Positions 34,101 to 58,038 of a DNA stretch of 64,000 nucleotides are shown in pieces; position 1 is the stretch's first letter; each line of letters starts with the position of its first letter. Where the stretch lies: NCBI GenBank assembly GCA_000499405.2, contig HG738139.1, positions 9,696,616-9,760,615 on the forward strand. The letters are read 5' to 3'. The notes under the pieces are model-generated. The model was not told the origin of the DNA, made no database searches, and saw nothing but the letters and a program-made list of their open reading frames with translations. This DNA is from Onchocerca volvulus. Lineage: Eukaryota > Nematoda > Chromadorea > Rhabditida > Onchocercidae. Made by a program: the position numbers and the translations under genes.

Positions 34101-37100
34101 TTCTCCATTTGAGTACATTCATTGAAGCATATTTGTTGCCCGCAAACTGATTATTCCACTTGAGTCAAGTTGATTGCCCTCTCCTATCACTCCACTGATC
34201 CGTCCCTAAGTTTGAAATTTAACATTCGAAAAATGATGAGTTCATCGATAGCGGGCAATATTCTTTTGTTTCCCAAGGAAATATATTTCATTTTTGCTTT
34301 CAAGTGATAAATTACCATCAGTGGAAGTGATGTAGAAGATTTGATGCTCGATAGAAAGGAGTAAATATTTTAGAAAGTCATGGATGGACGAGGAAGTGCA
34401 ATGAATCTTTTATATGAGACATATTTATTTGAAGGAAAAAGAAATGATTCTTTGAATGTTAAGATTGTCGAATTTAGCACCATTTACAGTAATTAGTTAT
34501 TCATTTCAAATAAAATTTAATCTTATATGTACATGTTTTTTATAGTAATTAACATATCTTTGTATCACATATATTTAAACTCATTTAATTAGAGAAATTT
34601 CAGTTAAATCAAAGTAGTCATCGAATTTTTCTCCACTTTATCATCATTGCTGTCTTCATTTTGCAAATTAATTATCCAAATATTTCACTAATCCATTATC
34701 CATCATCAAAGGGGGAGAGAAAATTACCTAAATAATGAATTCGAAAGTATTTTTTTATTTTATTTGATTCCAATTTTCTTTTTCCTATTCGTTTCTTCGC
34801 TCATTTTATGTGAATCGATAATTCGATTAATTTTCAATAGGATTCTGTTCTATTTAAGAAGATGCATTTACTCCTTTTTTTGCAACTTTTTTTCACAGTG
34901 AATTTATAATAAACATTTCTTCTTTCTTACTAAAATAAAAAGTTGCCAATAAATTTATTCTTTTCGATAAAAATCAAAAAAACATGAGTAATGAAAGTTT
35001 TTGCAATAGTTCCTTTATAAATGATTCGCTAGAAAATCAATTATTATATCAAAGATCCCAGTATGAAAAGTAAATTAGAGAATTCTGCTCTTTCAAAATT
35101 TTAGATGATTCTTTCATTGTCTTCAGTTCTATGCTGTTATTTATTATATGCCTGACCTTTAACCTTCTGTTGAATATTACGATCATAACATTTATCGTTT
35201 TCATTTTTTTATTATCATGCATACACTTGATGTTATTATCGCGTTATGCTAAAGCATTGCATGAAGTATTTGAGATGTAGTTTTACAGTGAACAGGGCTA
35301 ATGAACTTGAAACAAGGAAGTTGATATTGATAACAAAAACAACTTATCAAGATAGTAAGCGGAGAAGATCAGCTGTTTTAAGTGATTGGCTAAAGATGAT
35401 GTTCACGGTAACCGGTACATTCTCATCCTCATCATCATCATCAACACCATCAATGGTACCGTTGCTGCTATTACAACTATCACAACATAAATAATCGTAA
35501 TTATATAAGGATGATGGAGATTACGATACAGATTATCGTAACATTTTCTTAATTTTCAACAACTATACACAGAGTCAGTATTCTTTCAACATATCGTAAA
35601 TACTTCTCTGACATACCGTATACTACTTTTTATGGTACAAAGGATACTATCATTAATTTTTTTCAAAATTGTATGGGATGAAACGTCATACTGTATGCTA
35701 ACCGTTGTGAGAACGTTTGGTACGTAGGATAAGTACCATTAATTTTTCTCGAAATTAGACAGAATAAGGCATGGACATGAAACTTTGACATGAATGATGA
35801 ATATTTCTGAAAAGATATAAATATTTTCATGCATTTTCTGAGAATTGAAATCTATGAATTCTTCAATTTCATTTTCCTTCCTTTCTTTCCTCTTCTAATC
35901 GTTTTTAATAGCTGAAAGTGTAAAATGAGCTGCTTACTGATTCATTTTTCAAGTTTAAAGGATGGCAAGAAAGGAATATCTATTTCAGTGTATCCACTAT
36001 TTAAAAATTTTTTATCTTTCTGATACAGATCAATTCTTATCATTTGGTCAGATTTGCTTATATTCATTGATTTTTCCCTCATTGCTGTAATTGAAGCTTA
36101 TTATCATCCTTCACTCATCAGTTAATTAATTCCTCTTCACTGACATTTGTTTATTCTAATGTTGTTTTATTGTTTATTGAATTATTAACTTATTCGCGCA
36201 TTGCATCACATTTTCTAACTACTTCCTTATCTTTTTTTAACTTTTTTTTTATTTTTTTAACTAACTTATACTGCAATTGACCATAAATTTTTATAATTCA
36301 AATTTTTTAATTTTCTACTTCAATCGATTGATTGTATACTTTATCACAATTTTGATTTAGAAAATATGAATCGGACAATCCTATAATATAAAATATATTA
36401 TTTCTGATAATTCTTATTGATTAAAGGAGATTTTATTCATTAGTTAATTCTCCACCTTAATGATTTTAGTTTCAATAACCAATAATAAAAATGATACAGT
36501 AAAATGAAAAAAGCTATGAATTCTTCCTTTTGTAAAATTTAGACATCGTTGAGCTTTATATTTTTAAAGATCTTTTTTGATGGAAAGAAGTAATTGCTTA
36601 AAATTTTATTAAATTCGATTAATTTTTAGGCTAAGTGTCGTGCGCAAAAGTTAGAAACATTTGGTGATGTTGTTGATGGTACCACGGAACTGAACAGCAC
36701 CACCACACCAAATTCGACGATAACAGCTGTTCAACCTGTTGATAAGACAGCAACTTTAGCTACAACAACAACAGTTATAAATAAGGATTTAAGTGAAGAT
36801 GTTGACGGAAGTGATAAATCGGTACACGGAATCGTTGCGTCATTGATACGAGCAGCCGAGGAAACACGTTTTCAGGCACCAGATAAACCGAAGTCGTTGA
36901 ATCTGAGTAACAAGAAGTTTCAACCACAACAACCATCGACAACTGCTATCGCCACAATCACTTCTGAACAACAGGTACTCTATCATCGTTCACATTTTTA
37001 GCAATTTTTCATTATCATTTAGAATCTAGGTTAAAAGGTTAAGAAAGGAAATGACATAGTGCTTGCTGCTTGAAAAGAAATCTGGTGAGGAGTAATTTAA

Positions 37101-39659
37101 AGGAAGAAAAAACTCTCGTTGTTTTTGGAATTGATACAAATTTAATTTCATGTTTCAAAGTCGCTGTTCTCTTAATAATTTTCTTGTTTCGACAAACTGC
37201 CATAATTTTTCGATTTGTTCGTATTTTTTTATTTTTATTTTTTTTCATTTTTAACTGCATCAATGTTGTTTGTCCGCTTATTTATTTATTTAGTAAGTAC
37301 ATTTGTTATTTGTTTATTTTACAAGTACATTTGTTTTTTGTTTATTTTTGAGAATATGCAGACGAAAATAATTTCATCCATCCATTTCGAATTCAGATGA
37401 GATATGCATATAATTTTCTTAATTATATGTTATTTAAATAGAGAATTAATTGCAATATTCAAGTAAAATAAAAACTGAACCGAACTAATCGAAAAATGAA
37501 CTGAATTGAACCGAAATGATCCAAATTAAAATTAGTTCTATCTAAAATCAAATCTGATATTTTGGAAGAAAATGAGCTATTCGCCGAAAATTAAAATATA
37601 TGATAATTTTAATTTGGCACCAATTTCGTTTTTCTTTGTTTGTCCTTGTCGATTTTCGTCAGCATGTTATGCATATTTGTTTAGTTTGTTTGCTTATTCG
37701 TTTATTTATTTGCTGATAATTCGCGCATAAATAAGTTTGCGACAAGTCTTCTTCTTTTTTACTGCTCCAAACAAGGCAACAAGAAAGGATCAATTAATTG
37801 ATTTAAATTCAAACTTTTAATCTAACCGAAAAATTGGAATACAGTAATGATTGAAGTTAGCGCCATGCTAATTGTATACATTATCAAACTAATTTTAAAT
37901 TAAGTTAAAGCACAATGCATTACTCTGTCGCAGTCACAGCACTGTCTACCCCAGTAATTCATCGTTTTAAAAGTAAAAATAATGAATTATTGAGTTTACT
38001 TCAAACTTAGCTCTGTGTTTGCAACTCTTTTTTACTTTCATCCTAATGAGTTTTCCAACGTTTGCAGTCAACTTTTGCACTTTGAACTCCTTACTAGGCT
38101 CACTGGGCTCTCACGAAGTCATTTTGCTTCACATATGTATATAGATAGTTATACAGATTACATTGAACACGCACGTACGTGTGTGTATAAGTTATCCGTA
38201 ACATATTGTAAGATTTTTTTTTTCCTGTTTAATTCAACCAAAAATTATTTCTATTAGTGATTTCAATCCTTGAACAGTCATACTGACTTATGCTTATGAA
38301 ATAACTCATCATAATTTGATAATTAAAATTTTCTTTTTGGTAACACAAATTATATTCAAAGGCTTTTCAAACATTAATTGTTATAAAAGGCCGGCTTCTT
38401 TAAGAAATTTGCATGTTTGAAGATTGAATATGAAGTGTAAAAACAGTTTTCCAGAAAAATTGACCGAATTCATTTCAAACCAAACAAAAAGTAATATTGC
38501 TCTCAAGTTACCTAATTTTTTCGTTAATTTTTTACTGACACTTCTGCTTTTCAAAATTTGAAAGTTTATATATTTTCGAATATTTGCAAATGATGAGATT
38601 CATGTCCAACTCACCGCTTTCAAAGGAGAATAAATTTTGTAGGATACTGGTACTCAGACAAGTCCATATTCATTGTCCAGGTCCAGTTCCTTCGATTGGA
38701 TCAACGAGTCATCTCTTGAGGATCAGTACAGTGAAGAACTTATCATTACTTCAACAGAATCTCCGGGAACTCCTGGAGATCCTGAATATTCCTCATTGAA
38801 TAGAACTGTAAGTGCTTCACTGATTTTGCGTCCAACTTAAGGTCTTCATTTTCTAATAATTCTAAAGATGGATAAGTTGTAGTTCAGTTTTACATTGAAA
38901 TAAAAATACTATCATTAAAATTCAATAAAATCTAAAGCGAAATAAGTAAGTAATTCTATCACTTCCAGTTTGACGATATTTTAATACAGGTAGAATCTCA
39001 TACTCCTCATAAGGAAGTTCAAGGAATGTTGCGCAAAACTCCAGAAACACATGGTAGTTTGCTCGACGAAAGAAAGATACAGTATGTTTTTTGTTACAAC
39101 AAAAACTGAAAAAAATGAATAATTAAGCATTTTGTTTACTAAAAGCTTGCAAATTTATCCAGAAAAGCTGAAAATATGAGATTCTGTACTGAAATTATTT
39201 TCCTGACTTCGGGAACAATTGATTTCTCACCTGAAGTTATAAGATATCATTGAAATTATCATTCTTGCAGATCATCGGAAGATATTGATAATAGTATAGC
39301 AATATTGTTGGAATATGCTGGCGATCTGGATATGGTATCAAATCGAGAATTACATTATCCTGTCACCGGTGAAAATTTTACAAAGGTATAGAGCAGCTTT
39401 TTCAGGAGAAATGTTAAAATGTTAATTGATCTGCTAATTATTATCCAAATTTTCCGAAATTTGACATTGATGAGTAACAGTTTTTCAAATTTCAATTCGA
39501 TGCATTTAAATTGTTATCGAATTTTTTTTATTTTTATAGGTTACGAGTGATATTCGAAATAATGAATCAGTTTTATCACGTGAAATTCCGCCTGATATTT
39601 TGAAAAATAGGATATCATCGACGAATAATCAGCGTGGTTCGCTTATGCACTATTTATAA
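19111..39659 (+). CDS. Unrecognised Ser/Thr-rich basic protein, multi-exon, 5' incomplete; possible 5' half of the DLC-family gene
   Basis: Fourteen exons join with consistent phase: 19111-19241, 19756-19940, 20358-20565, 20897-20996, 21115-21228, 22035-22230, 22491-22691, 23710-24327, 24698-24862, 36630-36974, 38643-38807, 38969-39081, 39271-39385 and 39540-39659. About 925 residues are seen; the start is upstream. I recognise no folded domain. Exon 2 carries an Arg/Lys cluster (RRKRFTRRQRR) and exon 4 another (ARKARRRTLRYK), both NLS-like or membrane- or actin-binding in character. The rest is rich in Ser, Thr and Asn. Exon 11 holds a TQTSP motif resembling a dynein light chain LC8 site. 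The last exon ends at TAA 39,657-39,659 with AATAAA at 39,830. An internal donor (CGTG|GTTCGC, after 39,636) is in phase with the exon at 41,933, so this may be the N-terminal part of the RhoGAP gene downstream. Acceptor ambiguities are 19,756/19,759 and 38,969/38,990; a second donor of exon 6 is at 22,194. Confidence 0.62.
28517..28860 (+). mobile_element. Possible solo LTR or retroelement remnant
   Basis: This block is visibly less AT-rich than its surroundings. It starts with TGTAGGATGAAG, has a TATATAAATG box at about 28,729 and AATAAA at about 28,775, the order expected in an LTR promoter and polyadenylation region. It contains the duplicated 35-mer at 28,646-28,715. I could not identify a matching CA end with a target duplication, nor any internal coding region, so the call is tentative. 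An ordinary unique intron segment is the alternative. Confidence 0.22.
28646..28715 (+). repeat. Tandem duplication of a 35-bp unit
   Basis: Two adjacent 35-bp units begin TGGACAGTATTCTCGGA (28,646) and TGGACAGTACTCCCGAA (28,681). Each contains GGTGGACATTA or AGTGGACATTA. The copies differ at several positions, so the duplication is not very recent. Confidence 0.7.
33900..34210. other. Less AT-rich pocket inside the long intron
   Basis: Base composition rises clearly above the flanks. The stretch carries an AGGGGTCAAGTGG segment, a small hairpin (ACGAC, GATGATT, GTCGT) near 33,985, and a 36-codon open frame from ATG 33,920 with a possible donor CACG|GTGATA. It lies 1.0-1.3 kb before the candidate first exon at 35,246. 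A promoter or enhancer is a reasonable guess, but no element is diagnostic. Confidence 0.25.
35246..35455 (+). CDS. Candidate alternative first exon
   Basis: From ATG 35,246 an open frame of 70 codons runs to a donor ATG|GTACCG after 35,455 (or ACG|GTAACC after 35,407). Both are phase 0, as the next exon at 36,630 requires. The segment contains a basic stretch SKRRRSAVLSDWLK followed by a run of serines from TCA repeats. If it is used, it would give a shorter product beginning inside the long intron. Without splicing, the frame stops at about 35,490. Transcript support is needed; a chance open frame in repetitive TCA sequence is possible. Confidence 0.28.
37295..37350 (+). repeat. Tandem duplication of a 28-bp unit
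   Basis: AAGTACATTTGTTATTTG at 37,295 and AAGTACATTTGTTTTTTG at 37,323 begin two adjacent 28-bp units. The block sits in the intron after 36,974. Confidence 0.6.
38652..38666 (+). other. TQTSP motif, possible LC8 (dynein light chain) site
   Basis: The start of the exon at 38,643 reads DTGTQTSPY. The TQT core preceded by a small residue resembles the LC8-type dynein light chain consensus. Vertebrate DLC1 also has an STQTS segment, in its Ser-rich linker. Binding is not shown by sequence alone, and TQT tripeptides are common in Ser/Thr-rich chains. Confidence 0.25.
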
Positions 39660-41932: not shown

Positions 41933-44900
41933 AATTCTTCCGACGTTTTACGTCATCCACGTCTAATGGTAATGGTACCCATGGCCTGGCTGCTCAAACC
42001 ACGTGCATCCCAAAAAATTCTTCACAAGGTTCTATGAACGGTAGCATATATGACAATGTGCCTCATGCAATTAAGCAAACTGCAGCACTGCAAGCATCGC
42101 TATTAGGAAATGCCAATGCAGCAGCTGCAGTTGCTACCAATCATACTGCTAATGCTTCACATGAATTATCCCGAAAAGATAGCAATGGTTTGTTAATTTA
42201 AAATTTGAATCGAATTATTTTCTTAATTGCGATAAAATTTAAGCTTATTCTACGGTTACTTCTTGCAAAGTTGGTGTGTACAAAAACTTGAAATTTTATT
42301 GTCTTATGCTTTGGCTTTGTTGATTTGAGGAAATCGATTTCCAAAAATAAGTAAATAAGTTATTATGGATAGAGAAAATTAAATTATGATGACAAAAATG
42401 CCATATTCAACTAGCGGTTTTCCGAGTGTCGTTATCTGTAACCATAGATCTTTTAGAATTGTTTATTTACTAAACCTTCTCTCATATTTTTAATCTTAAA
42501 TTGGAATATTAATAAAATTTAAAGTGTTTCACTCATCGAAATTTCAAATTATTCACTTCTCCTTGTGACACTCAAACGTTTATTTTTATTGAAAGTTTAA
42601 AGTATTAAATTTATTCAGTAATTTAATTCACAACAGATTCAACACCATCATCGACCAAATTGAATCACGATGCCATCTTATCCTCAAAAAGCCCAAAAAC
42701 TATCGACAATTCAGTGTCACCAAATGGTAGTACTGTATCTCAGCGTGATATTAGTACCAGCTCTGGCTTGGCTGATAGCGAAAGTTCCCCGATAACGCCA
42801 ACTGCGATCAGTTTGGATCAGAACGTTAGATATAGGAAGCAAGAGCCAAATGTTAACAATAACAGGTCTCAGATGGATCAGGTAACTAATGAATCAATAA
42901 CTGATTGATCAGGTAATGACTCAGGCGCTGTATCTGTTAAAAATTAATTAATCAAATGAATAAATAAGAATTTTTATAGATAGTGATAGATTCATCGTTT
43001 GAAGTGGATACGGATGACAGGAAAGTTCGTTCACCACCACCACCTTCTCCTCGTTTGAGCACCGAAAAGCAAACCTTATCGATGGTACTAGCATCTGATT
43101 TGTTCGCTTTTAGTACTGGACGTGTTCCGGGACGAGCGGAAAGTTGTGAAGAGTTAGATGTCAATTTTACTGAACAGGTCCGATTAATAGTAATTAAGAC
43201 TTTTTTTTTTAAAATAAGATTTCGATGATTATTAAGTTTTCTGAAATGTTGTGTGTTTGAAGAGAATTATTAGAAATTATCGAAAAGAATTATATTTTCA
43301 TTGTGATGTTATCTATTTTGTTTTGAAAAATTAGACTTCTGAAATTAAATTCTATATTTTTATTTTCAGACGAGCGATGAGTTATATGCTCAAAAAAAGC
43401 AAAAAGTTGGTAAGTATTTCAGTGTAATTAAATTTTTTGAAAAATTTATCGAATCAATACCATTTCTCGAAAGATACTAAACTTGTCATTGTGTAATTAA
43501 CCGTGGTATTTTATGCATTTTTACCAATAGTTCTTCTACTTTTTTAAAAAATTTGTATCAAAAGAAACTAAATTACTCTGTCTGTCCTCTTTTAATTCAA
43601 TAATGAAATCAAATTTTAAAATTTCAGTGTGTTTTTTTTTTTTTTTTTTTTTTTAAATTTGCCGAATAATGAGTAGTCAAATTAAGAGGTGTGAAAAAAG
43701 TGAATTAACTTTTGATCTTATGGCATTTTTGCTAGTTGTGAAGATTCCGCAAAACTTCTAATTAATTTTTTCATGCATCATTGTGTTGGGATAATCTTTG
43801 TTCTTTCTTTTTTCCAGTTTTCGAGTTCTAGCATTTTTCCTGTTTCGTTTTCCTTCAAATTTCATTTTCCACTAATTAATTTTAGATTTTTTACACTCTA
43901 CTATTTTTATTCTATTTGTAATTAATTTCCGGTAAATGAACAACGATAACACACATATGCTTGCTCATTTCTGTCCAAAAGCATAATTTCAGGAAAAATT
44001 TAGGAATCGTTCTGTATTTTATCGGAATGTCGGATGGATGTAAACGATTGATTTCATTTCCATCTGTGTACCATCGGTGCAATTTAGGGCAAAATTTTTT
44101 TGTACAAAATATTGGAATTGGAATACATAAAATGGAACTTCTAGTAAATAAAAGTTTAATTGGAAGCAGATGCTTCCTTTCTCTCTCTCTCTCTTTCCGT
44201 ACCATTATCTCTCAATTATAAGTTGATTTTTTATTCTTTCGGCAAACTCTTCAACCAAGCTACATTTGTTTCTTGCAAATGCTATCATCCAAAACAGCTG
44301 CTGTGCTACCGTCGTTGGCATTCCTTCAAATTTAGCTTCATTCTTCTCAAAAACCAGTCTGTCTCAATTTTAACCTAAAATGGGGAACTTGACTTGAACT
44401 TGAGCAATTCCAGGTTAAGATTTGTAATATCCGCGGGAAATTCAGGTGTAGATGCTTATCAGATAAGATTATCTGGGATAGCCTGCACTTCCCAAATTTA
44501 TGCATCACCTTATTTTTGCTCCAGTATTATTTTTCCGCTTTATAAAACTTTACAAGTTTGCATAGAATTCATAGTTTCCCTAACTTCTCGAGAATCGGTT
44601 GAAGAGAGAAACAAATAAAAAGTTATTTCATAAATTTAGAACAATACGAGAATGTTACTGTAGAATTACAGAATGAATGTCTTTCAGCTTTTAATTTTGA
44701 AAACTCGCTTAGCAAGAATGAAAATTGTCCACTCTATTCTTTCATTTTTAAATTTTACTGTTGAGGAAATTTATTCGGAAGATACTATGATTTTGATAAG
44801 ATTATTTGTAATAGAACAAAAATGAAAAAGCTAAAAAATTGGCTGAATAAAAAGTAGAAGGCCGGAAAATGACCACAACTCAACCCGATTTCCTGAATCA

Positions 44901-47900
44901 TCTTTCCTGAATCACCTGAACCATTCCGATTTCCTGAAGATATTTTTCTTATTTTTTTAATAAATAAAATATGAAGGATTTGTGATGAGATTTTCGACTA
45001 TCTAGTACTATTTTACTGCGTAAAAAAATGATTCACAATGCAAATATTTAAAATTTTAAGATTTTTTTTTTTCCTTTTAATAAACACGCTTACATTTAAC
45101 AGATACAATTTCATATAACGCCATTCCACTTTTAACTTAAAAATTGAAGTTTATTGTAGATCTCTGTTGTAGGAATTTATCTATTAAATTAAATGATTTT
45201 TTCAAAAATAATCATCAATTTTATAATTCTTTTATAAATTTGATGGAAGTCTTTATCCCTATTTACAGATAATAAAGATGACATAAGTGATGTGCAATTG
45301 GTAGTGTTTTTTATCGAGAAATAATGTAAATGAAAATTACGATTTCAAATTTCTATTTAGGAAAATTCATTAAAATTAATCTCTTCTATGGTATGAAAAT
45401 GTTTTACATCTGATGGACAGTAGAAAATTTTATACCACATGCCAATATTTTTTTAACTTTTTCATTTATTTTATTCATTAACATTATCAAAATACCCCAA
45501 TCATTCAACTCAACCGATTTTCACTGATAGTGTCACTTCCTATCAATCATTATCAGTCCCTGCGGAAATTCAAGATTTTGACATTCCGTTTAATCCTTTC
45601 CGTTTAATCCATGCGTCGTCAATGTGGGTTTTGATGAATTTGATATTTCCTGATAATAATGTCTTTTTAGCTTGTTTTAGATTTATATAACATCTCTTCC
45701 ACCTTACAATTATTATTGCTCTTAAATTACAATGAGGTATCCAGGAGTTAAATTTTACATGAAAATTATTAATTATATTTAATTTTAAATAGTTTTACAA
45801 AAAACGATAAATCTTTCATTTTTAGACTACAATAATGAATTATTCTGAGCAGTATTTGATCATGTTGTATTTTTAAATGAAATTGAAAGTTAATTTCTAA
45901 TTTTCGTATTATTTTTCTTTATGTATCTCCGAATGTTACCATATATTTTACATCAGATGGTTGAATTAAAATTTTCAAGCAGCGTTTGATCATCATTTTA
46001 CACAAATTTCTCCGCAATATCCATCTCTCAGGTAACAACGAGTTTTGCAAGTGCGACATTTACTCAGATATTTGCTGTGCATGTTTGATACGTCTCAGTA
46101 AATCTTTTCAACACATTTCTTCCTTTATCAAACTATATGTGTGATACGAGTAGTTGAATTCATGTTTCACTTGATTTCCTCTTTGTGAACCAACTCTTTC
46201 AGTTCTATTTCAATCTTTGAAATGCCACTTTTCTGGTTGTTCGATTCCTTTCAGCCATCATTCTTCTTCCTTCATTTCAACATTTTAACCATTCCAGGAA
46301 TATTAAGTTATTAGTTTCTTTAATATTTATAAAATTATTCTCATTTTTTCCTATCAGTAATAAATTCCACATTTTTGACTTACTTGAGTTTGATTTAATT
46401 AATTGGTTTTTTCAGTTGAATTCTTCGAATTACCTATTATTGAAATATATTAATTTTATATTCTTATCATAAATTTCAATGGAAATAATGCCGTATGCTT
46501 GTTGAAAATGTTTTGACGTATTTTTTTCTGATAATCGACACAGACAACTTCATCATTAGGAAAAGCTAAAAGTCTTAGAAAAACTGCTGCGGAATTGAAT
46601 ATTTTTTGTTGTTAAATACCAGAAATAATTTGAAATTCTAAGCAAGACTGTAACAAAAGTAAACATTTGATTTCTGAGCTTCGCTTTTCGGACATTTTTT
46701 AAAAATTTGTTAAAAATAGAATAATTCCATTATGCATTTCTCTGTGTTCTATTTGCTTTAGAATAAAAAGAAAAAGTAAAGATGTTTTTTGTTGGGATGC
46801 GAAATAATGACTAAGAAAGTTGTATTTTTATCTTTTCCAACAATTTTACTTTTTGATTTCTTGATATGATTGTCTCATCTTCTGTTTTGTTTTAAGTAAA
46901 TTGAAGCATATTATTAAAAAATCACTTATAATATCATTAAGATGTCGATGATTCTTGTCAAGTTGATTTTCTGATTTTGTCTTCATCTTAATTCATCTCG
47001 CTTTTTTGAGACTGATGGAAAGGTAGTGGAAGGTATTTGCGAACTTGAAATTTTAAAATCTTTATCATCATAAAATTATTCCTAATTTTAAGATTATTTC
47101 AAATCACCTCTCAAATTCATTAAATGTTCTGCAAATTCCCAAGAAATGCTTTTTTTCTTCAATATAATATTTCGATTTTACTTAATTTTTACGCTTCAGA
47201 ATATTCATATAACAGGAGTCTGCATTCATGATCTGTCTGTTGAATAAAGGAGTTTTCTGATGTCAGTTGAGAATCCGTTGTTCTAGAAAATTTTGAGGAA
47301 ACCATTATCAGTTTGTTAATAATATTTATATCCATGCTCAAGTTTGAAATAATTTTCAGAAGAAGAAGCAATTGAATGTGTTCGTTGGTTGCGTGATGCT
47401 GGCTTTCCGCAATATGCTCGACTTTATGAAGGTATAAATACATTCTTCATATTGAAAATAAATAAGTTTAATTTTTTTCTTAAAAAATCGGAGAAATTAA
47501 ATTATGAAAAATTGAAAAGTTCTTGAGACAGAATTTCGTCCGTTTAATTCCATTTGTACGAAATAGAAAGTTGCGGAATATATAGAATTGCAGCAGAATA
47601 AGCATTTTAAATTTGATAGTTAAATTTTTCAAGAAATTAAAAAAATTGCAAATTGCAGAACATCGCTTTCCAATAGATATTCGTTCGGTACAACGAGATC
47701 ACGAATTTTTGGACGATGATTCGTTGCGAGCACTGTTCCGCCGTCTCAATGCGCTTAATCGATGTGCTATTATGAAAGTTGAAAACGTGGTACTTAGGAA
47801 ACATGTAATGTTTCTAATTTTCTTATTGGATTTGTTAGGTTTCCTGGAAAAGGCTGCATGATTAATGACACTTCCTGGTAGATCCAGGTCCCAGTAAAAT

Positions 47901-50900
47901 CTCATCGATTGATAGTTTTGAGATTATCAAGTTGTTTTGAAGATTGAACTATGGTTTTCATAGTTTTATAAAATATTTTTATTGTACAAAGAACTATTGT
48001 TTAATTATAAGTAGCATACAAAACTGAATTGAAAATTTGAATTGCAATAATCAATAAATGAATTATTCATAACAGAAGAGAAGCTATAAATGAAAGTTCA
48101 AAACTGTTCGTTTTAGACATGCACTCATTATTTCAGCCTGAACGATTTGATATTAATCCACTGGAAACAGATATTGATGACGATATGACAATCAGCAATT
48201 ATGATGATGACGATGATCAGGTTGATATTAAAGTTGAAAAAGTTTCTGAAGTACTCAAAACGATTGACAATCATTACAATGACTCTGTTTTTGTTTTTGT
48301 TTTTTGTCAAATTTTCAATGATCATCGATCGAACTTCTTCATTTATTCATTTATGTGCTTTCTGTTATTATACAGTAAGTATTGACTTTTTTTAGATGAA
48401 TGTTTGTTTTTTGTTCACAACCTTCTGTTATTTCTCTGTCCTTATGTTTATATTCGAGAATTAATGACGTATGTAATTAGAAGAAGGAAGCAAGCTCACT
48501 AATCACATAACATACTGCTTACAAAGTTCGTATAATTCAAAGTTTGTGAATCGATCATTTTTAGGTAGCTATTTCAAATAAATGGAAGTATCAACGTAAT
48601 TCCCAAACTTGGTCTAGAATTGTGCGAGATGATGACACTGCTGGTAAACATCATGAATCTATATTTCAAAATTCCAAATATATTCATACATATACATATG
48701 TTCACTTTGATTCTAAATCATATTAAAGGCTCATTTCACAGAGAATCGTTCGTTGTGAATATTCCTAACTTAGAGATTTCTTTCGATCATTTTAATCAAT
48801 TGCGACAGCAAGTAATTAAGCAGAAAATCAATGACATTAGTGAAAAAGTAGAAAAAAAAAAATCGTGAAGTAATTAAACGTAAACACAGGTGATAGTGCT
48901 TGGTCATCGCACAAGGAAGAAGTTTCCGGAGCTGAGCTTGACGATGCGTTACAGATGTCATTCGGTCATAGACAGAATCCTAGAAGACAACCGGATGGCG
49001 CTCCACGTTTTAACGATGATATATACAACAGCAGAAATCAGCGTGATATTACTGCTAATCTGGTTATTGCTCGAAATAATCGGAAAAATTGGTAAGAATT
49101 TGAGAATGAAATTCATTTTTAAATACAGAATCTTTTTGAACTAAGAAATATTTCTTCGAAATATTTCAAAGATTATTTGTCTTCTGTATCGTTTTCAGGT
49201 TTCTGAATTTTTGCTTTTGAATGCGACGTTATTTCAATTTCTTTACCTTCCAGTCCGAATGATTCGATCCGTTTGTTATCTTTCAGAATACGAAGTTTCT
49301 TCTATCTTTTAAATATTTATCTTCTCTTCTTTAGTTTTGCAATCGATTCATCATCACCACCATCAACAGCAGTACCGGCAGTAAATTTGCAACGATCGCA
49401 AAGTGAAAGATTGAAGGAACGCGCACGAGCATTAATGAAACGTATGAATATACGATCATCCAGCAGGTCTTGCTTCTTTTCCACTTTTTTCTAATTTAAA
49501 CAACTGCAAATATAATTTAATTTTCATTGGAACAAATTATTCCATTATTTATCCGAATTATTTTATGATTTTTTGGATTGAAATTATTCATTGATATTTC
49601 ATTTCCAAACAATTTGCTAAATCAAAAAATCCATACGTTTCATTGCAACGTATTTTCCATATAAATTATGCATTTTCATCTTTTTTATAAAATTCTTAAG
49701 GTGTTTCTATGATATAAAAAATTAAATTCATTTTAGTCTTTTCGAATTCATTTAATCCGATAAAGCTGTTGTAGTAGATATTTCCAAATCGATGACTTAT
49801 AAACAATAATACAATTTTTTTTTTCCAGTTTTACTCTTATTACGTCTATTCTAATAGGAGTTTCCGTTAAATCATAATTTGTGGGACTTCTCGGGAGCTT
49901 TGAGAGAAATATATTGAATCTTGGAAATTCATCAGTGATCTATTAAGATCTATTCAGTGATCTATCCAGTGATCTATCCAGAATTATTGCCACTTATAGC
50001 ACATTTTGATCTCCTGCTGTATCTTTGCATAACACGATTTCTTTAAATAATTATGTCACATTCAAAAAACTTACGGCTCCTTATTTTTTAAAAAATTATT
50101 ACTTTTGATGAAATCGTGCAAATTTTCGCTTTTAAACTCTTACTATAATTTAACAAGAACATCAACTCAGTTTTTTTTCTTTAGTCATATCATTAAAGGT
50201 GCCTCATTATCATCATTAATAATTATGTTGTAATTCGAAGTTATTGCAACCATAATTTTAATAATAAATATATAAATAATGGTGATAGCAATAATGATTT
50301 CGAATGGATAATTCATTTTAATCTATTCAGTTCCACAATTATATTAATTCCTATTTAAGACGTCGTCGACAGCGTAATTCCTCCGTAGCTGATTCAGCAT
50401 TTTCCTCGACAGCTGGAATTCCGCATTCGTCGCCATCATCAACCACGACATCATCATCATTATCGAAAGCAATTTCAACTACGGGAGGTAGAGATTTAGT
50501 AATCGGTGATCCGGTACTTGTTTCGCATTTTTCGGCCAGTCCACGGACCATGCGTATGTTCCCTGATGGTTTATCCAATATTTTATCATCACAAGCTGTC
50601 ACTCCACAAATGTTGAATGAATTTCGTCGCGACAGTACTGCTACAACAACGGATGATCATACATCCGATGGAGGTATCCATATATTTTGCTCAAATTTCA
50701 AATGAATTTAAATTTAATTTAAAAAGCCATGCATATTTTGAAGTACAATTATGAGACTTGAAAAACAATATAGCTTAATGAAGTGTGAGATAATGAAGTA
50801 ATTATGAAAGTAATTTGTTTTTTTCTAGTTTAGACTTTAACGAATCCTATCACTGATCTGATCATCGCTGATGATCATTTTGCTTTGTTATCTTCTTGTT

Positions 50901-53900
50901 ATTCGTTATTAGATACAAAATAATCTTCACTTTTTCATCAGATTTCTCAATATCAAAAATTACGAAATTTATGACGAATAATTCGATCACTGAATTAACA
51001 CAGAAATTAGAAAATTATAGATTTTAGCATGGCATGTTGGAATTGTTTAACTGAGTTCTACTTCAAAACTTCAAAAATTCAACTTGAAATTCTTTTCACA
51101 CATAAGAAACAGATCAAGATTTGTTGCGTCTATTTCATTTCTAATTTTTTTCTTTATATCAAATTCTAATATTGATTTATTATGCTAGCTTGAACAAATA
51201 TGAAACAATTTATCAGTTTTTTGCCAATATTTTGCCATCGATGGTAAGCTGTCAGGGCTTCTGAAATTGATTCTACCAGAATTTGTGGTTCCATCACAAA
51301 TTCTCATTTCTCACTTAATTGATTTATTCCTTCTAATGCAGTCTTACTACTGTATGATTGCGTATGTTGCAGTAACGTTTGCCGTATTACAACCTATGGG
51401 ACAAAAACAACAACAGATGATGTCTGATTCGCCACAATACAAGAATTCTTCTTCACCATCTTCCCGAATGCGGACACGTTTTTTAGGTGCCAGTAATCGA
51501 CGTATGGGTATGGTACTTGATTCTTCCGAATCATCTGCTCCTATCACCACTGGTCATTCATCACGTCATGAATCGATATGTCGCAACAAATCACGTGAGT
51601 TATCTTGCGATCCGGTATTGATACGTGGATTATCACGTCATGATCGCAACACACGAATATACGATCGAGTAGCGCAGGATTTATGCGCTGATAATACTGA
51701 ATATGCGAATCCAAGACATGGACCCGTTGATTTAGAAGCAACAACTTATTATGATAGATGTCCCGCAGTAAAGCATAATGAAAGAGCATCATCATCGCAA
51801 TATTGCTATGCCAATAATACAAATTTCTCTTCATTGATAAGGTTTTTATTCTGATTATTAAAATTTTAAGAATATTTCAATTTTTCTTTTTTCAAATATT
51901 ATCTCGGTCTTTGGATTTTCGTTTCTTTCTATCGAAGACACTACACAGCAAGAATACAATACCCGGGTATTAAAAGGTTTTAAGAATCTCTCGCAATGCT
52001 TGGTAATTGTGAAAATTGGGCAAATATTTATTTTTAGGACATCTTTTGAAAATTGCGGAAGTTCTTAAGTTTCCTTGTATGGGCAATGCAAATTGGAGTT
52101 CTTTTGAGAAGTGATGAAGATTGGTGTATTCCTGATCTGTATTTAAAAATTTTTTCTTCAATTGACGAATATATTTTTCCGAAAATATGCAAATTTTAGA
52201 AGCGATCTGCAATTTTCGGGTGAGAATGTTCTTTCTGACAGTTCATTGAACTATGATGTACTGAGAAGTCATCCTAGACAGAATATGGAGTATGATCGAG
52301 ATCGAGGTTTAGCATCTGAACAGTCTTATGCTCGTTCCAGGCTAGTCGTCAATGCTGATGGTTATTATGAACATATTCCTTCAGATGGTTGGTGATTTCC
52401 TGTGCTATCTGTTTATTGTTTACCATACAAATAATATATTAATTCATTTCACACGATTAAATCCTGGAAATTTTGATAAATTTAAATTCCTGAAATATTC
52501 TTTTCTAGTTATTCGTGATCTATCATAACAATATTGGCACTAGTCTAATCCATTCTAATAGCTTATTCATATTCTTAATAATTAAAGGTAGCAAATTGTA
52601 TATCAAGTCTTCATTTTCTTTTTTTTTTTTTAATTTTTAAGTTGAAAAATATCCAAAAAGAATCGATAATTTTGCATAATTTAGAGTCAATAACTGTTGC
52701 TCAAGTTGACTTTTGAACTATTTCAACTTCAACAATTAATTTTTTTCATAACGAAATTTGTTTATTAAATTATGAACGATGAAGATATTATAGATGTTCA
52801 TGATATCTCGCTTGATCTGGCAGCATTCTCGTCGAACCTTGATGATTCAGTGGTTGGAAGCGGTACCTCGGGAGCGACAGTATCCATTGCTGCATGTCAT
52901 CGTGCTGTATCACCAGAATCATCTTCCTCCAATACAAGCAACTCTAATCATCCCAATCGTTTAAAGGTTAAATGTCTTACCGTATTCGGAAAGAAATGGA
53001 AAAAATAACGATTTATTGATAATGGATTTTGGCGGTGATAGAGATGGGACATGCTTCATATCATTAATTTTCGATGAATGAGAGAATTTCAGATGAATTT
53101 CAGGATATTTATAGAATTTAATGTTTAAATTTTATCATGAAGTTGTAATTTCTCTCTCTTTACATATTTTCTGTTAAAATGGGGAAATTTGCGAAACTTT
53201 AATTTTTGATGATAAATTTCTTAAAATTTCTTCAATTTCACTATTCCATTCGTCTTTGCTTTGATTTTCAACAAAAAAAATAATGTTTTTCTATAAAATT
53301 TCTAACCCTAAATTGTCAATATTTCGAAAACATTTCAGACGGAAATTGATAGTCGAAGTGGAAAAAGGCTTGTTTGCGGCAGCATTTCTTCATCATTTAG
53401 TGCAGTTAGAGGTATGTCAACGCAAAGGTCACATTCCAGTTTGGAAAGTAGTGGAAATGACGATGAACTAATTACGCGACAACATAGGTCAGGTGTCGGT
53501 GAACGACGTGATTCTGGTGTTGGTTCAAGCCTTTCCAGGTCACCTAGGTTGGTTAATAATTTCATCTTTTTCTTATTTTTGGCAATATATTGTATCTAAT
53601 AGTTTAGTAAAAAGGCCCACAATTTAGAAAATAGATCTGAATTGGAATTTTTAACTTTTAAATTGTATCGTTCATAATGGATTAAATTATTAAAAAAAAA
53701 AAAAAAAAAAAAGAAAAGAGGAAGAAATTTCGTCGAAAAAGTAGAATTTATCGTAAGAGCGTGTATAATTTTAACGATGCGCACGACCCACAAAATCGCA
53801 AATGCTCAATTAGAAAAAAAAAAAAAGTTAAACATTCTCGGGATGATTTTAATATCTTCCGGGAATTCAGTGGACCAACGACGCAACGACAACGCAACTC

Positions 53901-56900
53901 CTTGTTATTTACGTCAACACCATCGACATTACATATTCGAGAAATGAAATCGAAGCATTTATCGCCCAATCCATTGAATACTTTTCGTGCTGATTTTAAT
54001 GAAACATTCATTAGTGATGCTAATTTGGCACAATGTATGGATGCCTTAAGTGTCGGCGAAATGGTTGGTAAATGTTGGATTTTCGTCATTTACTTGAAAT
54101 GTTATCTTCTTTGGCTTAATATTTATTACTTATCTTACTTATTATTTTACTTATTTACTTAATGTTTATTTACTTATATATTTATTTATTTCTTTATAAT
54201 TATATCTGCCTAATTATTACGCTTACACAATTTCACACCTATTTTTTCGTTTATTTATCTCCCTTCTGATTTCAATTCTTATCAGTCTCATTCCTCAACT
54301 CTTTCTTTTTTTGTTCATTTTTTGAACTTGTTTCATTTGATTTATTTTCTTTGATTATTATTCGCTTTTATTTTACTTGCTACATCAATTTAGACTTCTT
54401 CTTTTTAATTAATCAAATCTTTCGCTTTAGCAACAAATACGAAAATTGGCGTTTCTTAAACTATCAGTGATGATCGAAACTTATGCTGGAAGTGGTATTA
54501 GGATTGGTGTTATCGCTGATAATAATGATAGTGGCAGAGTAAGCAAAAGTTGGGCAGTTCATAAATTTATCAGACGAATGCGCAACAATGATGCCATTAA
54601 TAGTACTAGTAAACCTACTGGACGTAAGCTAATACTTTTGTTTAATGAACCTTAATTATTGATGGATATCTTCAATTACAGAATGAAATGATATGCATGG
54701 ATAGTTCCAAAACATATTTCTTGGCCAAAAATATAAATACGCAGCATTATTTAGATTGAACAATATGATCATAGCAAAAGAATTTTTTCTAATCGGTTGA
54801 AAATTACGAACAATCAAATATGAAATAATAGATTTGGAATATAATTCTCTATTCAGCTTGGAATATTTGTTAACAAAAAAAAAATTTGAAAATATAGAGT
54901 ATAATAAAAATTTTTGCCTGTTTCTTCCCCATCAATTGTTTCTATATTTTTCTATAGTCATCCATTAAACAATTTTCAAGAATTTTCTCATTTTCAGCAG
55001 AACTTTCAACTTTCGGTTTACCGCTAGCCGTCATCCAGAGTCGTTCGGGTTTTGCTCTGCCTCGATTCGTTTTGGAAATGATGTATTTTTTACGTATCGC
55101 AGCTCCAGATACTGTCGGGATATTCCGGAAAAGTGGTGTTCGTTCACGAATTACGGAATTGCGAATGCTATGTGATGTGGCTCCAGAAGCGGAAGTTTTT
55201 ACAGATGGAAAACTTGACCTATCTCAGGTATTTACCACTTCTCAATATCTCGGAAAGCTTAAAATCATTTTTTGATTTATGGTAATTCGTCAAGGTATTT
55301 TATAAATCGATCAACATGTTAAACTTAAAAATACTTTGACTGTATGCTATTTATTAAATTTAAAAAGGAATCGCAATAATTTTTATAGAGCATAGATGCT
55401 ATTTTGATTTCACTTGATCTCCATGGCAATGTGGAATGATTTATTTTGATACTATTTTATTTCATGTATATTCAATGTGGTACCATTTTAGGTTCATGAC
55501 ATAGCTGATCTTTTAAAGCAGTACTTCCGTGAATTGCCAGAACCTTTGATGACTGCCAAATATTCGGAAACATTCGCCAAGATTTTCATACGTAAATTAT
55601 AATATTTATTGGATATTATTACATTTCGATGTATAAATTTCATTAATTTATTTACTTTTTTCGTACAAAATTGCATAATTATTACCCTTTTGTCAAATTC
55701 ACAGATATTCCGATGGAAATGCGTATGGAAGCTCTTCAATATGCTGTTTTGTTGTTGCCTGATGAGCATCGTGAAGCATTGCAAACTTTACTTTATTTCC
55801 TTCATGATATTGCTAAACATTCTGCAACTAACAATGTTAGTTTTTATTTTTCATAATTTTGTTAATTTCTGTTTGCATTTCGAATATTGTATTTCTAAAA
55901 TCATTCAAATTTCATATGCTACTTTTTTGTATTTCACGATTACATTCAAAATTCATTTTTAAAAAATTAAAAAATTAAAAAGGAAGTCACAGACAAAAAT
56001 AAAAAAAAGAAAAGAAAGGATCTGAAAAGTAGGTATTTCATATTCATTTTTTTGAAAAATTTTAATCAGAGCAAGAGAAGAGTTTCGAATTTTATTAATG
56101 AATGTTAAAATTTCCAAGATCTTTTTCTGCTGAATTTGAATGTTATTTTGTTTTTTAGATGACGTCACAAAATCTCGCTGTATGCTTCGCACCGTCATTA
56201 TTTCAGTTATGTGGTTCACGCTTGAATAATATTAGTCCGACAAGGTTGGCATTAATTTGGTAGCTGAAATATGAGATAACGTCACGATCACGTGAAGTAT
56301 TGGTATCTTCGCGCCTAGCAAATAGTAATATTTATTTTTACGAAGAATCGTCTTTCTAGACGTCATAAAACAATTGGAGCAGCAGGACTGCCGACAGAAC
56401 GTGAAATTAAGGAATCACGCGCTGCACAAGAATGCCTGGTGCAGATGATCGAACACTGTAGCAAAGTATTCATCGTACCAGCCAGTCCCGGTTTCGAACG
56501 TGATAGAGGTAACGAGTACTGTAAAGGTACCGAACCGGATGCACCATTTCTCGCCGAATTGGGTTTATCCCAAGATGGAAATTACAAAACGTATCTGTTA
56601 CAAAAAGCCAGAGAGCTGTTGAAGGTAAGCAGCTTTCAATTTATTTCGCTTTCGAATATCTTATCTCAGTTTATTTTAAAATACTCAAAAAAATCAGCTA
56701 CCCAAATTGCAATATTTCTTCAGGAACATCGGGATCGTTGGAAAGGTTGGATTGTTGAGGGCACAGTGAATGGTGTTGAAATTTCAACCAAAAAATCAAC
56801 CGATGGTCATCCCTTGCGATTCTTCCGTGTTTGGGTTGATATTGAAGCACCACCCAAAGAGATTCTTACTAGGATTGTTCGAGAAAGGTTGTCTTTATTT

Positions 56901-58038
56901 TTATTTTATTAAATTATCAAATAATACTGTTATGAAAAGATACAAGAGAGTTTGATGATATGATAAGGCATGTAATAGCCTATATCTATCCATATAATTA
57001 AAAATGTAAATGTTCCTTATTTTTTTTCTCGGAGACCTTAAATCTTCGAAAATTCTTCACCGATTGTTTAAAATTTTGATACAAGGTTGTATTCGAATAG
57101 GTTGCGTATTTTTATATAGATATACCTACTTTTTTCTAATGTTTTACACCTGTGACAGGTAAAAGTAAGTGAGCGGACTGATTTTTTGACCACGCCTTTA
57201 TAAGCATGCAGAATTTATTGACAACGTTTGCTTTCTGCATTCACCAGAAGCCAGCCACTCGAAAGCGTGACCGGTCAGCTAGTATAGTATAATTATTTTT
57301 AAATTTAGAAATGTTTGGGATCATCAAACTATCAACTGGAGAACAGTGGCAATATTGAATGCCGAAAATTGTGACGTTTTCCAGTATGTTATCAATGATA
57401 CGCCATCACATCCTACTCGTGACACCACGGTGGTTAGGTATGTCCAATTGTATTTACAAAAAACTTGCTTAATATGCGACAGTAGGGGAATTTTACGAAG
57501 GATTGCTGAACTTGAATACGTAGAGATACTATGTATGCAATTAATTTCATGAAATTTAATTTTTTTTTTTAAGTTTGAAATTTAATTTTTGAATTTATTA
57601 GGCTGTGGCGTACGGATATGAAAGAATTACGTGGTGGTTGTGTTTTAGTAGAGCGTTCAGTACATTCCAGTGAAACACAACTATTGGGTGGTATTTCTGC
57701 TGCTGTACTTTCATCACAATTTCTCGTTGAGCCAATTACTGGCCGTTCACGTGTTACGTATATCACGAGAACTGATTTAAGGTATAGCATGAAAAGTTTT
57801 GTCTTTGTTGGTTATATATTTCTTTATTTATCTTTCAGTTAAGGTTAGCTTTTTTTGACAAATGAATTTTTTCTATTTCAATTTAAAAAATTTTCTTTTA
57901 AAATTAAATTTTAGAGGTCGAAGTAATGTTTGGTATAGTAAAATATATGGACAGCTTATTGCTCGACAACTTTCACAATTACGAGACTCATTCAAACAAT
58001 TTACACGTGTCGATGATGGCCCTGAAACGAAAGTTTGA
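41933..58038 (+). CDS. gei-1: DLC1/STARD13-family RhoGAP with SAM and START domains
   Basis: Twenty-six exons join without a frame break: 41933-42187, 42637-42881, 42980-43177, 43370-43409, 47360-47431, 47659-47789, 48137-48220, 48565-48643, 48890-49091, 49335-49466, 50360-50673, 51373-51841, 52200-52387, 52794-52966, 53339-53547, 53745-54063, 54431-54623, 54998-55227, 55492-55591, 55705-55835, 56159-56244, 56360-56624, 56724-56887, 57309-57437, 57602-57781, 57915-58038. They encode about 1,570 residues. Order: SIYDNVP (38-44), SAM (about 247-314), Ser-rich linker, RhoGAP (about 1,105-1,283, arginine finger near 1,145), START (about 1,335-1,550), TGA. Family members accelerate GTP hydrolysis by RhoA/Cdc42 at focal adhesions and bind lipid through START. 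The first exon begins after an acceptor with one carried base, so the 5' end is upstream: either a small unseen exon or the block ending at 39,636. It is longer than human DLC1 (1,091 or 1,528 residues) because of the linker. The symbol follows the C. elegans orthologue. Confidence 0.9.
42043..42063 (+). other. SIYDNVP motif (tensin SH2-binding type)
   Basis: Codons AGC ATA TAT GAC AAT GTG CCT spell SIYDNVP inside a Ser/Asn-rich segment. The identical heptapeptide is the focal-adhesion targeting site of vertebrate DLC1 (around Tyr442), bound by the SH2 domain of tensins. In vertebrates it lies between SAM and RhoGAP; here it lies about 200 residues before SAM. That the same partner binds in the worm is inference. 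Confidence 0.75.
43410..47359. other. 3.95 kb intron before the SAM exons
   Basis: Phase-1 exons flank it (GTT G|GTAAGT on the left, TTTTCAG|AA on the right). It contains a long T run (43,629-43,655), a CT microsatellite (44,178-44,193) and otherwise AT-rich sequence without supported exons. Its size, next to introns of 100-900 bp downstream, and its place just before SAM would suit an internal promoter for a short SAM-RhoGAP-START form, but nothing diagnostic is seen. Confidence 0.45.
47360..47789 (+). CDS. gei-1: SAM domain exons of the DLC-family gene
   Basis: Exons 47360-47431 and 47659-47789 encode a SAM domain. The first has the helix-1 signature AIECVRWLRDAGFPQYARLY. The second has FPIDI, RDHEFLDDDSL, RRLNALNRCAIMK and closes with KVENV. 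Human DLC1 has GFPQYAQLYE, FPIDI, REHDFLD and RRLNTLNKCAVMK at the same places, so the assignment is firm. This SAM type acts as a protein-interaction module and is reported to autoinhibit GAP activity in DLC1. The intron between the two exons is 227 bp and falls in phase 1. Confidence 0.93.
48137..54623 (+). CDS. gei-1: Ser-rich linker exons of the DLC-family gene
   Basis: Eleven exons between SAM and RhoGAP are mostly disordered, but landmarks of the DLC family recur in order. After an acidic run DDDDDQ comes VAISNKWKYQRNSQTWSR (DLC1: CAISGKWTFQRDSKRWSR). Then come RARALMKRMN (49,335 exon), RDLVIGDPVLVS (50,360 exon), RTRFLGASNRRMGM (51,373 exon) and ERRDSGVGSSLSR (53,501-53,539). The last is a helix QQIRKLAFLKLSVMIETY leading to SWAVHKFIRRM before RhoGAP. 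The acidic exon donor is taken at CAG|GTTGAT (48,220) because that restores the family match. The exon at 53,339 has two donors three codons apart (53,538 and 53,547). Confidence 0.85.
49933..49978 (+). repeat. Short tandem repeat CAGTGATCTATY
   Basis: CAGTGATCTATT at 49,933 is followed by CAGTGATCTATC at 49,955 and 49,967, with an AAGATCTATT variant between them. It lies in the intron after the 49,466 donor. Confidence 0.6.
54110..54195 (+). repeat. TTATTTACTTA-type tandem array
   Basis: Degenerate TTATTTACTTA/TTATTACTTATC units repeat over about 85 bp in the intron after 54,063. It is a simple-sequence array with no evident function. Confidence 0.5.
54998..56244 (+). CDS. gei-1: RhoGAP domain exons of the DLC-family gene
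   Basis: Exons 54998-55227, 55492-55591, 55705-55835 and 56159-56244 encode a complete RhoGAP domain. FGLPLAVIQSRSG opens it. VGIFRKSGVRSRI carries the arginine finger (CGG at 55,126-55,128) and the conserved Lys. Then come VHDIADLLKQYFRELPEPLM, a helix with LLLPDEHREALQTLLYFL, and MTSQNLAVCFAPSLF with the Asn that helps coordinate the switch region. All residues expected of an active GAP are present. The domain stimulates GTP hydrolysis on Rho-family GTPases. The first acceptor is a NAGNAG (54,998 or 55,001), adding or removing one residue. Confidence 0.95.
56360..58038 (+). CDS. gei-1: START domain and C-terminus of the DLC-family gene
   Basis: Exon 56360-56624 holds the post-GAP helix (AAQECLVQMIEHCSKVF) and START entry. 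The exons at 56724, 57309, 57602 and 57915 complete the START fold: RWKGWIVEGTVNGVEIS, GHPLRFFRVWVDIEAPP, NVWDHQTINWRTVAIL, DVFQYVINDTPSHPTRD, LWRTDMKELRGGCVLV, SRVTYITRTDLRGRSNVWY, and a final helix RQLSQLRDSFKQF. Human DLC1 has ARDYVVLRTWRTNLPKGAC and LTYMCRVDLRG at matching places. START domains bind lipid in a closed groove. The TGA at 58,036-58,038 is followed by no clear AATAAA; AATAAG near 58,156 is a possible variant signal. Confidence 0.93.
56985..57282 (+). mobile_element. Helitron-like non-autonomous repeat, complete ends, in an intron
   Basis: This is the best copy. It starts TCTATCCATATAA after a host A and ends GTGACCGGTCAGCTAG before a host T, the A|T target expected of Helitrons. 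A hairpin-capable segment (GCCACTCGAAAGCGTGAC) precedes the CTAG end. Shared blocks are AAAATGTAAATG, CTTCACCGATTG, TTGTATTCGAATAGG and GACAGGTAAAAGTAAGTGAGCGGAC. The 298-bp copy has no ORF and sits within the START intron 56,888-57,308, in sense orientation. Confidence 0.6.

Follow-up and report, generated by a model that had tools for sequence, protein, structure and literature searches.

Most of the nematodes sampled here, the filarial worm Onchocerca volvulus among them, carry the tensin-type motif of their DLC/STARD13 RhoGAP (SIYDNVP in O. volvulus) ahead of the SAM domain, in contrast to the other animals sampled, in which the motif, where present, lies after SAM. We analyzed a 64,000-base stretch of the O. 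volvulus genome (the window) together with homologous proteins, and conclude that the linker site was probably lost in the nematode lineage, while an equivalent site was gained in an already existing, disordered N-terminal segment, where it would serve as a dock for tensin. Tensin motifs in DLC proteins and the turnover of short motifs are already known; none of the titles and opening parts of abstracts that we surveyed, a scope outside which most subscription journals lie, describes a nematode motif swap across SAM, and a literature text search for SIYDNV gave no match. Docking motifs are usually mapped by alignment, by which the nematode DLC would be scored as having lost its tensin site. 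With the site conserved in a wide set of nematodes, yet across a folded regulatory domain, the family offers a natural experiment on motif place.

The DLC/STARD13 locus of O. volvulus

The gene carrying SIYDNVP is of the SAM-RhoGAP-START type and comprises 32 exons in our model of the O. volvulus window, all on the forward strand (Table 1). Searches of the worm's own genome with linker and N-terminal pieces matched this locus alone, with no paralogous or second gene, which makes it the one DLC/STARD13 orthologue of this Onchocerca-like filarial worm; the closest protein among the matches listed is an O. ochengi model, identical at 1747 of 1758 aligned residues (99.4%). The window protein has SAM, RhoGAP and START in the order that characterizes the family. 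Pfam did not report SAM in it at E 0.001, and the domain, which starts at about residue 535, was confirmed by its match to solved DLC1 SAM structures (2dky, E 6e-23). The RhoGAP segment GIFRKSG, whose arginine has the catalytic role in RhoGAP domains, is present in the window protein and its relatives. Orthologues place one acceptor at 53871, so that a length of ~1824 residues is right, as against 1874 in an exon model with the acceptor at 53721, which carries 50 extra residues; everything before residue 1226 is the same in both.

Table 1. Features of the O. volvulus DLC/STARD13 gene in window coordinates, with the tensin gene of the same genome.
Feature	Position	Strand	Details
Start (MMFTVTG) and six upstream coding exons	35396..39636	+	35396-35455, 36630-36974, 38643-38807, 38990-39081, 39271-39385, 39540-39636; in-phase splice sites; orthologous models P0001, P0002, P0003
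Conserved helix DIDNSIAILLEY	39281..39316	+	~100 residues before motif; LD-like; pLDDT ~92 in Loa loa homologue
Motif-bearing exon	41933..42187	+	Acceptor ATTTGCAG, donor GTTTGT; in phase with neighbours
Met codon three residues ahead of motif serine	42034..42036	+	M there in 16/20 nematode sequences
SIYDNVP, tensin SH2-type motif	42043..42063	+	Residues 329-335; AGCATATATGACAATGTGCCT; frame of ORF 41896-42201
Exons between motif and SAM	42637..43409	+	42637-42881, 42980-43177, 43370-43409; GLADSESSP and RAESCEEL blocks
SAM domain exons	47360..47804	+	47360-47431, 47659-47804; match to DLC1 SAM 2dky, 2gyt, 2kap
Linker exons	48137..53547	+	48137-48220, 48565-48643 (AISNKW), 48890-49091, 49335-49466, 50360-50673, 51373-51841, 52200-52387, 52794-52966, 53339-53547 (ERRDSGVG)
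RIYDRV, degenerate site in usual linker interval	51654..51671	+	Inside TRIYDRVAQD, 51651-51680
Exons through RhoGAP inclusive	53871..56244	+	Pfam RhoGAP E 4.2e-40; acceptor 53871 from orthologues P0001-P0003 and the sequence at 53861-53880
Last exons with START domain, to stop	56360..58038	+	Pfam START E 3.5e-15
Tensin gene (L038), SH2 and PTB exons	C2:10061000-10070900, own genome	-	

The first-pass annotation of this DNA had reported the exact DLC1 heptapeptide about 200 residues N-terminal of SAM. Both parts stand: the codons read SIYDNVP in frame, with the serine and tyrosine of the core that a tensin SH2 ligand has, and the computed spacing to SAM is ~205 residues. When the 64 kb window is read in six frames, the pattern [ST][ILVM]Y[DE]N[VILM] occurs once, at this very place.

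Distribution and conservation of the motif in nematodes

Our nematode sample amounted to 31 sequences, namely 30 proteins among the matches listed and the window protein. One homologue search gave 183 matches, 63 of them outside the list examined, and the matches listed held no Tylenchina, Dorylaimia, Enoplia, tardigrade or priapulid. The counts below include isoforms and close relatives (O. ochengi beside the window, two D. immitis models, three Pristionchus, isoforms of fish) and are thus not independent. Six contigs were counted as non-nematode and P0013 as nematode, in agreement with blastp against both sets in all seven cases, the weakest of which was P0139 (290 bits against non-nematodes, 117 bits against nematodes).

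An N-terminal block with SRSSSFDW is held by 24 of the 31 nematode sequences among the matches listed, and the seven other models, being without the block, are uninformative on the motif. S[ILV]YDN[VM] was found in 20 of these 24, always with SFDW first, the LEY helix next and the motif last; 16 of the 20 models continue into SAM, whereas the Loa, A. viteae, Setaria and Plectus models are without SAM and the place of their motif rests on block order. The carriers are the window, O. ochengi, B. pahangi, Loa loa, Acanthocheilonema viteae, Setaria digitata, Plectus sambesii, Mesorhabditis belari, Haemonchus contortus, Necator americanus, Nippostrongylus brasiliensis, Diploscapter pachys, Angiostrongylus cantonensis, Auanema sp., Caenorhabditis auriculariae, C. 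bovis, P0013 and three Pristionchus species. Judged from these models, a motif before SAM is common to most sampled nematodes and not specific to the O. volvulus genome. As Plectus belongs to Plectida, outside Rhabditida, the pre-SAM site apparently dates at least to the ancestor of these two groups. The four models that have the region and miss the motif are two of D. immitis, Ascaris lumbricoides and Parascaris univalens, indicating that the motif can be lost. We also looked for nematode relatives with the motif in the usual place, and none of the 25 nematode models that include linker sequence, of which 22 have SAM and three begin within the linker, showed [ILVM]Y[DE]N[VILM] there.

The site stands out from its surroundings: among five filarial genera (excluding D. 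immitis), SQGSMNGSIYDNV is invariant at 11 of its 13 columns, compared with 7 of 34 columns for residues 289-322 and 2 of 41 for residues 335-375 of the same genera. In a 20-sequence nematode alignment that includes one D. immitis model and leaves out the ascarids and the window, the S, Y, D and N positions hardly vary (at least 90%), with a mean column identity of 30%. The consensus around the site is M[NST][EGDS]S[IVL]YDN[VM], YDNM (M for V) being found in 9 of the 20 nematode motif sequences and SIYDNVS (S for P) in B. pahangi. As to D. immitis (models P0002 and P0005), one model misses a 23-residue block that includes the motif and the other misses more; in each, the sequence picks up again at ALHASF behind a lysine or arginine, so that, judged from these protein models, a true in-frame deletion seems likelier than two splicing errors.

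Position of the motif in other animals

Among the matches listed, none of 130 non-nematode relatives has the motif before SAM, and 75 have it after SAM (74 in the linker and one in a fragment); the other 55 are without any, so the motif is not family-defining. SAM begins past residue 150 in 52 of the 130, and when F and Y were allowed at the hydrophobic place, the after-SAM count rose to 78 and the pre-SAM count among these 52 proteins with long N-termini was still 0. The linker motif is kept in a millipede and a crab, and in two spiders with Tyr replacing Ile, which indicates that arthropods had the site in the linker too. All 41 hymenopteran models examined are without it after SAM (40 hold RhoGAP and one ends at SAM), which we read as an independent loss. 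Mapping the motif relative to SAM, the check proposed by the first-pass annotation, placed it before SAM in most of the nematodes sampled and, where present, after SAM in the other animals sampled, a distribution that bears out the annotation's view of a motif that kept its sequence while its place changed.

The order of landmarks was compared between all 31 nematode sequences and a subset of 25 non-nematodes. Of the latter, 17 showed an AISxKW-type match, 5 the PVL block and 19 RDSGVG, and the order where landmarks were found was SAM, AIS, PVL, YDN, GVG, RhoGAP. The nematode order is identical except for YDN, placed before SAM, and AISNKW and ERRDSGVG follow one another as had been claimed; since the other landmarks hold their order, it is the motif that moved and not SAM. 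A KERAR-type block after SAM was tried as a further shared landmark and set aside, as its pattern matched nematodes only.

With vertebrate DLC1, STARD13 and STARD8 (S440/Y442 in DLC1), the nematode proteins share the same letters in the same family, and tensin is encoded in the O. volvulus genome. They differ in having the motif before SAM instead of in the linker, in M[NST][EGDS]S in place of RxS, and in a linker without the LD motif, which in DLC1 is the talin site (PMC4938799). Arthropod Cv-c/RhoGAP88C resembles the nematode proteins in its SAM-RhoGAP-START order and its homologous N-terminal extension (TQTSP, SRSSSF); unlike the nematodes, none of these arthropod proteins has the motif before SAM.

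The N-terminal region that holds the site

A profile of the nematode N-terminal region matched arthropod N-termini (best hmmsearch E 5e-9 over the 52 sequences searched, with some composition bias), and the TQTSP and SRSSSF blocks are common to both groups. By this comparison the region is older than the nematodes. The DIDNSIAILLEY helix ahead of the motif was matched in 23 nematode sequences, Ascaris and Plectus included. In the AlphaFold2 model of the Loa loa homologue, whose mean pLDDT is 49.8, confident helices span residues 84-101 and 194-238, and ~90 residues separate the end of the second helix from the motif, which itself has a pLDDT of ~47; the stretch around the motif is presumably disordered.

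We also tested whether the tensin motif had been accompanied in its move by the talin LD motif; the N-terminal helix misses the strict LD consensus. That consensus was found in the linker of none of 22 nematode models tested, and it is also missing in 7 of 15 non-nematodes tested; given that the linker LD motif is present in 0 of 7 arthropods tested and that the helix falls short of the consensus, a joint move of the LD motif stays a lead.

Probable loss of the linker site and gain of the N-terminal site

The first-pass annotation had also held that the linker lacks the motif, which is right insofar as no YDNV is present there, and requires qualification in that a degenerate [KR]IYDRVA stands in the old interval of Spirurina. 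Located between PVL and RRDSGVG, it was found in 11 of the 11 Spirurina models among the matches listed that reach this interval, and the 14 nematode models with linker from outside Spirurina are all without [KR]IYDRV. It is without the serine, asparagine and proline of the tensin motif, and may be a remnant of the old site or unrelated.

Either exon relocation or independent gain had been offered to account for the changed place, and the evidence leans to gain and loss. The sequences upstream of the two sites differ: 16 of 20 nematodes have M at the third position ahead of the serine, and 15 of 21 others have R at the second. A profile comparison of ~60 residues on each side (20 nematode and 21 non-nematode sequences) detected no likeness, although this is a weak test, the shared heptamer itself being unaligned. 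Taken together with an N-terminal region that predates the nematodes, the unlike flanks favor turnover of the site over transfer of an exon.

Relocation, whereby the ancestral linker site was carried to the N-terminus with its exon and its surroundings have diverged since, would fit both the identity of the heptapeptide to the vertebrate one and the missing intact linker copy in 25 of 25 nematode models with linker sequence. Against it stand the differing upstream consensus, the lack of likeness outside the core (in the same weak comparison), the remnant-like [KR]IYDRVA kept by Spirurina in the old interval, and the presence of the receiving region, without the motif, already in arthropods; we regard it as unlikely. 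The preferred reading, loss at one place and gain at another, has a parallel in the turnover of short linear motifs reported for Csd (PMC6288827), where a motif was likewise lost at one place and arose elsewhere. The nematode exchange differs from it in crossing a folded domain, and in that the new site was kept from Plectus to filariae and Caenorhabditis.

Tensin as the candidate partner

The O. volvulus genome encodes a tensin, the SH2 of which we joined by hand from three exons; it matches the tensin2 SH2 structures 2kno (E 4e-44) and 2l6k (E 7e-44) along its length. A point against docking is that it has Phe at the position of tensin2 Tyr41, a residue reported to be important for binding in a study in which the human DLC1 peptide bound the tensin2 SH2 with a KD of 248 nM unphosphorylated and 31 nM phosphorylated (PMC3134462). 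S440 and Y442 of DLC1 were reported to be required for focal-adhesion targeting, while their mutation lowered tensin2 binding only partly, a PTB-binding site at DLC1 375-385 being used as well (PMC2680019).

On our reading, the worm motif would bind the tensin SH2 and target the RhoGAP to integrin adhesions. As in vertebrates, the worm SH2 is expected to dock on SIYDNVP whether or not the tyrosine is phosphorylated, and docking would hold the RhoGAP at the adhesions, where Rho activity would be lowered. A dock on the N-terminal side of SAM would tether tensin beside SAM, the domain by which the GAP is restrained. The tensin C2 was reported to contact DLC1 SAM in human cells, where SAM restrains RhoGAP (PMC12383349), and since C2 contacts SAM also, docking and release of the restraint may stay coupled. 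It is possible, if doubtful, that one tensin molecule grips the motif through its SH2 and the adjacent SAM through its C2 and so forms a direct RhoGAP switch, in which case the RhoGAP of Dirofilaria and the ascarids would be uncoupled from adhesions. The question of motif place can be tested in C. elegans, and gives a defined prediction on the control of RhoGAP by tensin and SAM.

The pre-SAM motif could instead be an SH2 ligand for another partner, such as the Grb2-like SEM-5 or, where it reads YDNM, a PI3K-type SH2, and resemble the tensin motif by convergence. The consensus of Grb2-like SH2 domains is pYxN and that of PI3K-type domains pYxxM, which YDNV and YDNM fit, and the worm's own genome gave 25 SH2 exon matches. 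A serine two residues ahead of the tyrosine is no part of pYxN, however, and all 20 nematode sequences having the motif keep this serine, on which focal-adhesion targeting of DLC1 depends, in the same protein family and with tensin present in the genome. We thus find convergence on another partner improbable and retain tensin as the candidate.

Ancestral state, gene continuity and chance

An ancestor with both sites, of which nematodes lost the linker one and other animals the N-terminal one, would agree with the N-terminal extension that nematodes and arthropods have in common; given a pre-SAM motif in 0 of 52 non-nematodes with long N-termini, it would need several losses, and we give it little credence.

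That the motif exons belong to the SAM gene is indicated by several lines of evidence. Exon 41933-42187 joins in phase through 43370-43409 to the SAM exons, the phases fitting across the intron 43409-47360. In relatives, where we looked for signs that the motif exons lie in a different gene, the models join them to SAM: those of O. ochengi and B. pahangi combine homologous N-terminal exons with SAM, RhoGAP and START in a single protein, and in the D. immitis models the exon chain likewise runs into SAM with the motif block missing. Motif and SAM lie within one reading frame in 16 nematode models, among them P0013, a 1804-residue frame without interruption on a contig of 5,772 bases, which from its size looks like a cDNA. 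Setaria is split in the intron before SAM into two models (P0123, P0007), the Loa N-terminal model ends at that intron, and the A. viteae model ends one exon earlier; we take these ends as annotation breaks. They are what would speak for motif exons from another gene and a pre-SAM place produced by annotation, which the fitting phases and the 16 shared frames make very improbable.

Chance resemblance without function is hardly credible either: short motifs arise easily, and the D. immitis and ascarid models do without this one, but just 2.5e-6 copies of the exact heptapeptide are expected in a protein of the same composition, even the looser [ILVM]YDN[VILM] appeared in 0.085% of cases when the 534 residues before SAM were shuffled, and the motif is kept from Plectus to filariae in a fixed block order.

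Additional observations

Two Caenorhabditis models (P0014, P0153) have a SAM domain. The C. elegans homologue is said to be without one (PMC5854602), and its gene may thus merit re-checking.

The linker holds a second SH2-like tyrosine motif, GYYEHIPS, at window positions 52360-52383. Filariae have DGYYEH[IL], Gnathostoma has DGYYDHI and several Rhabditina have DGY[YF]MHD, which suggests that this tyrosine stretch is a nematode landmark.
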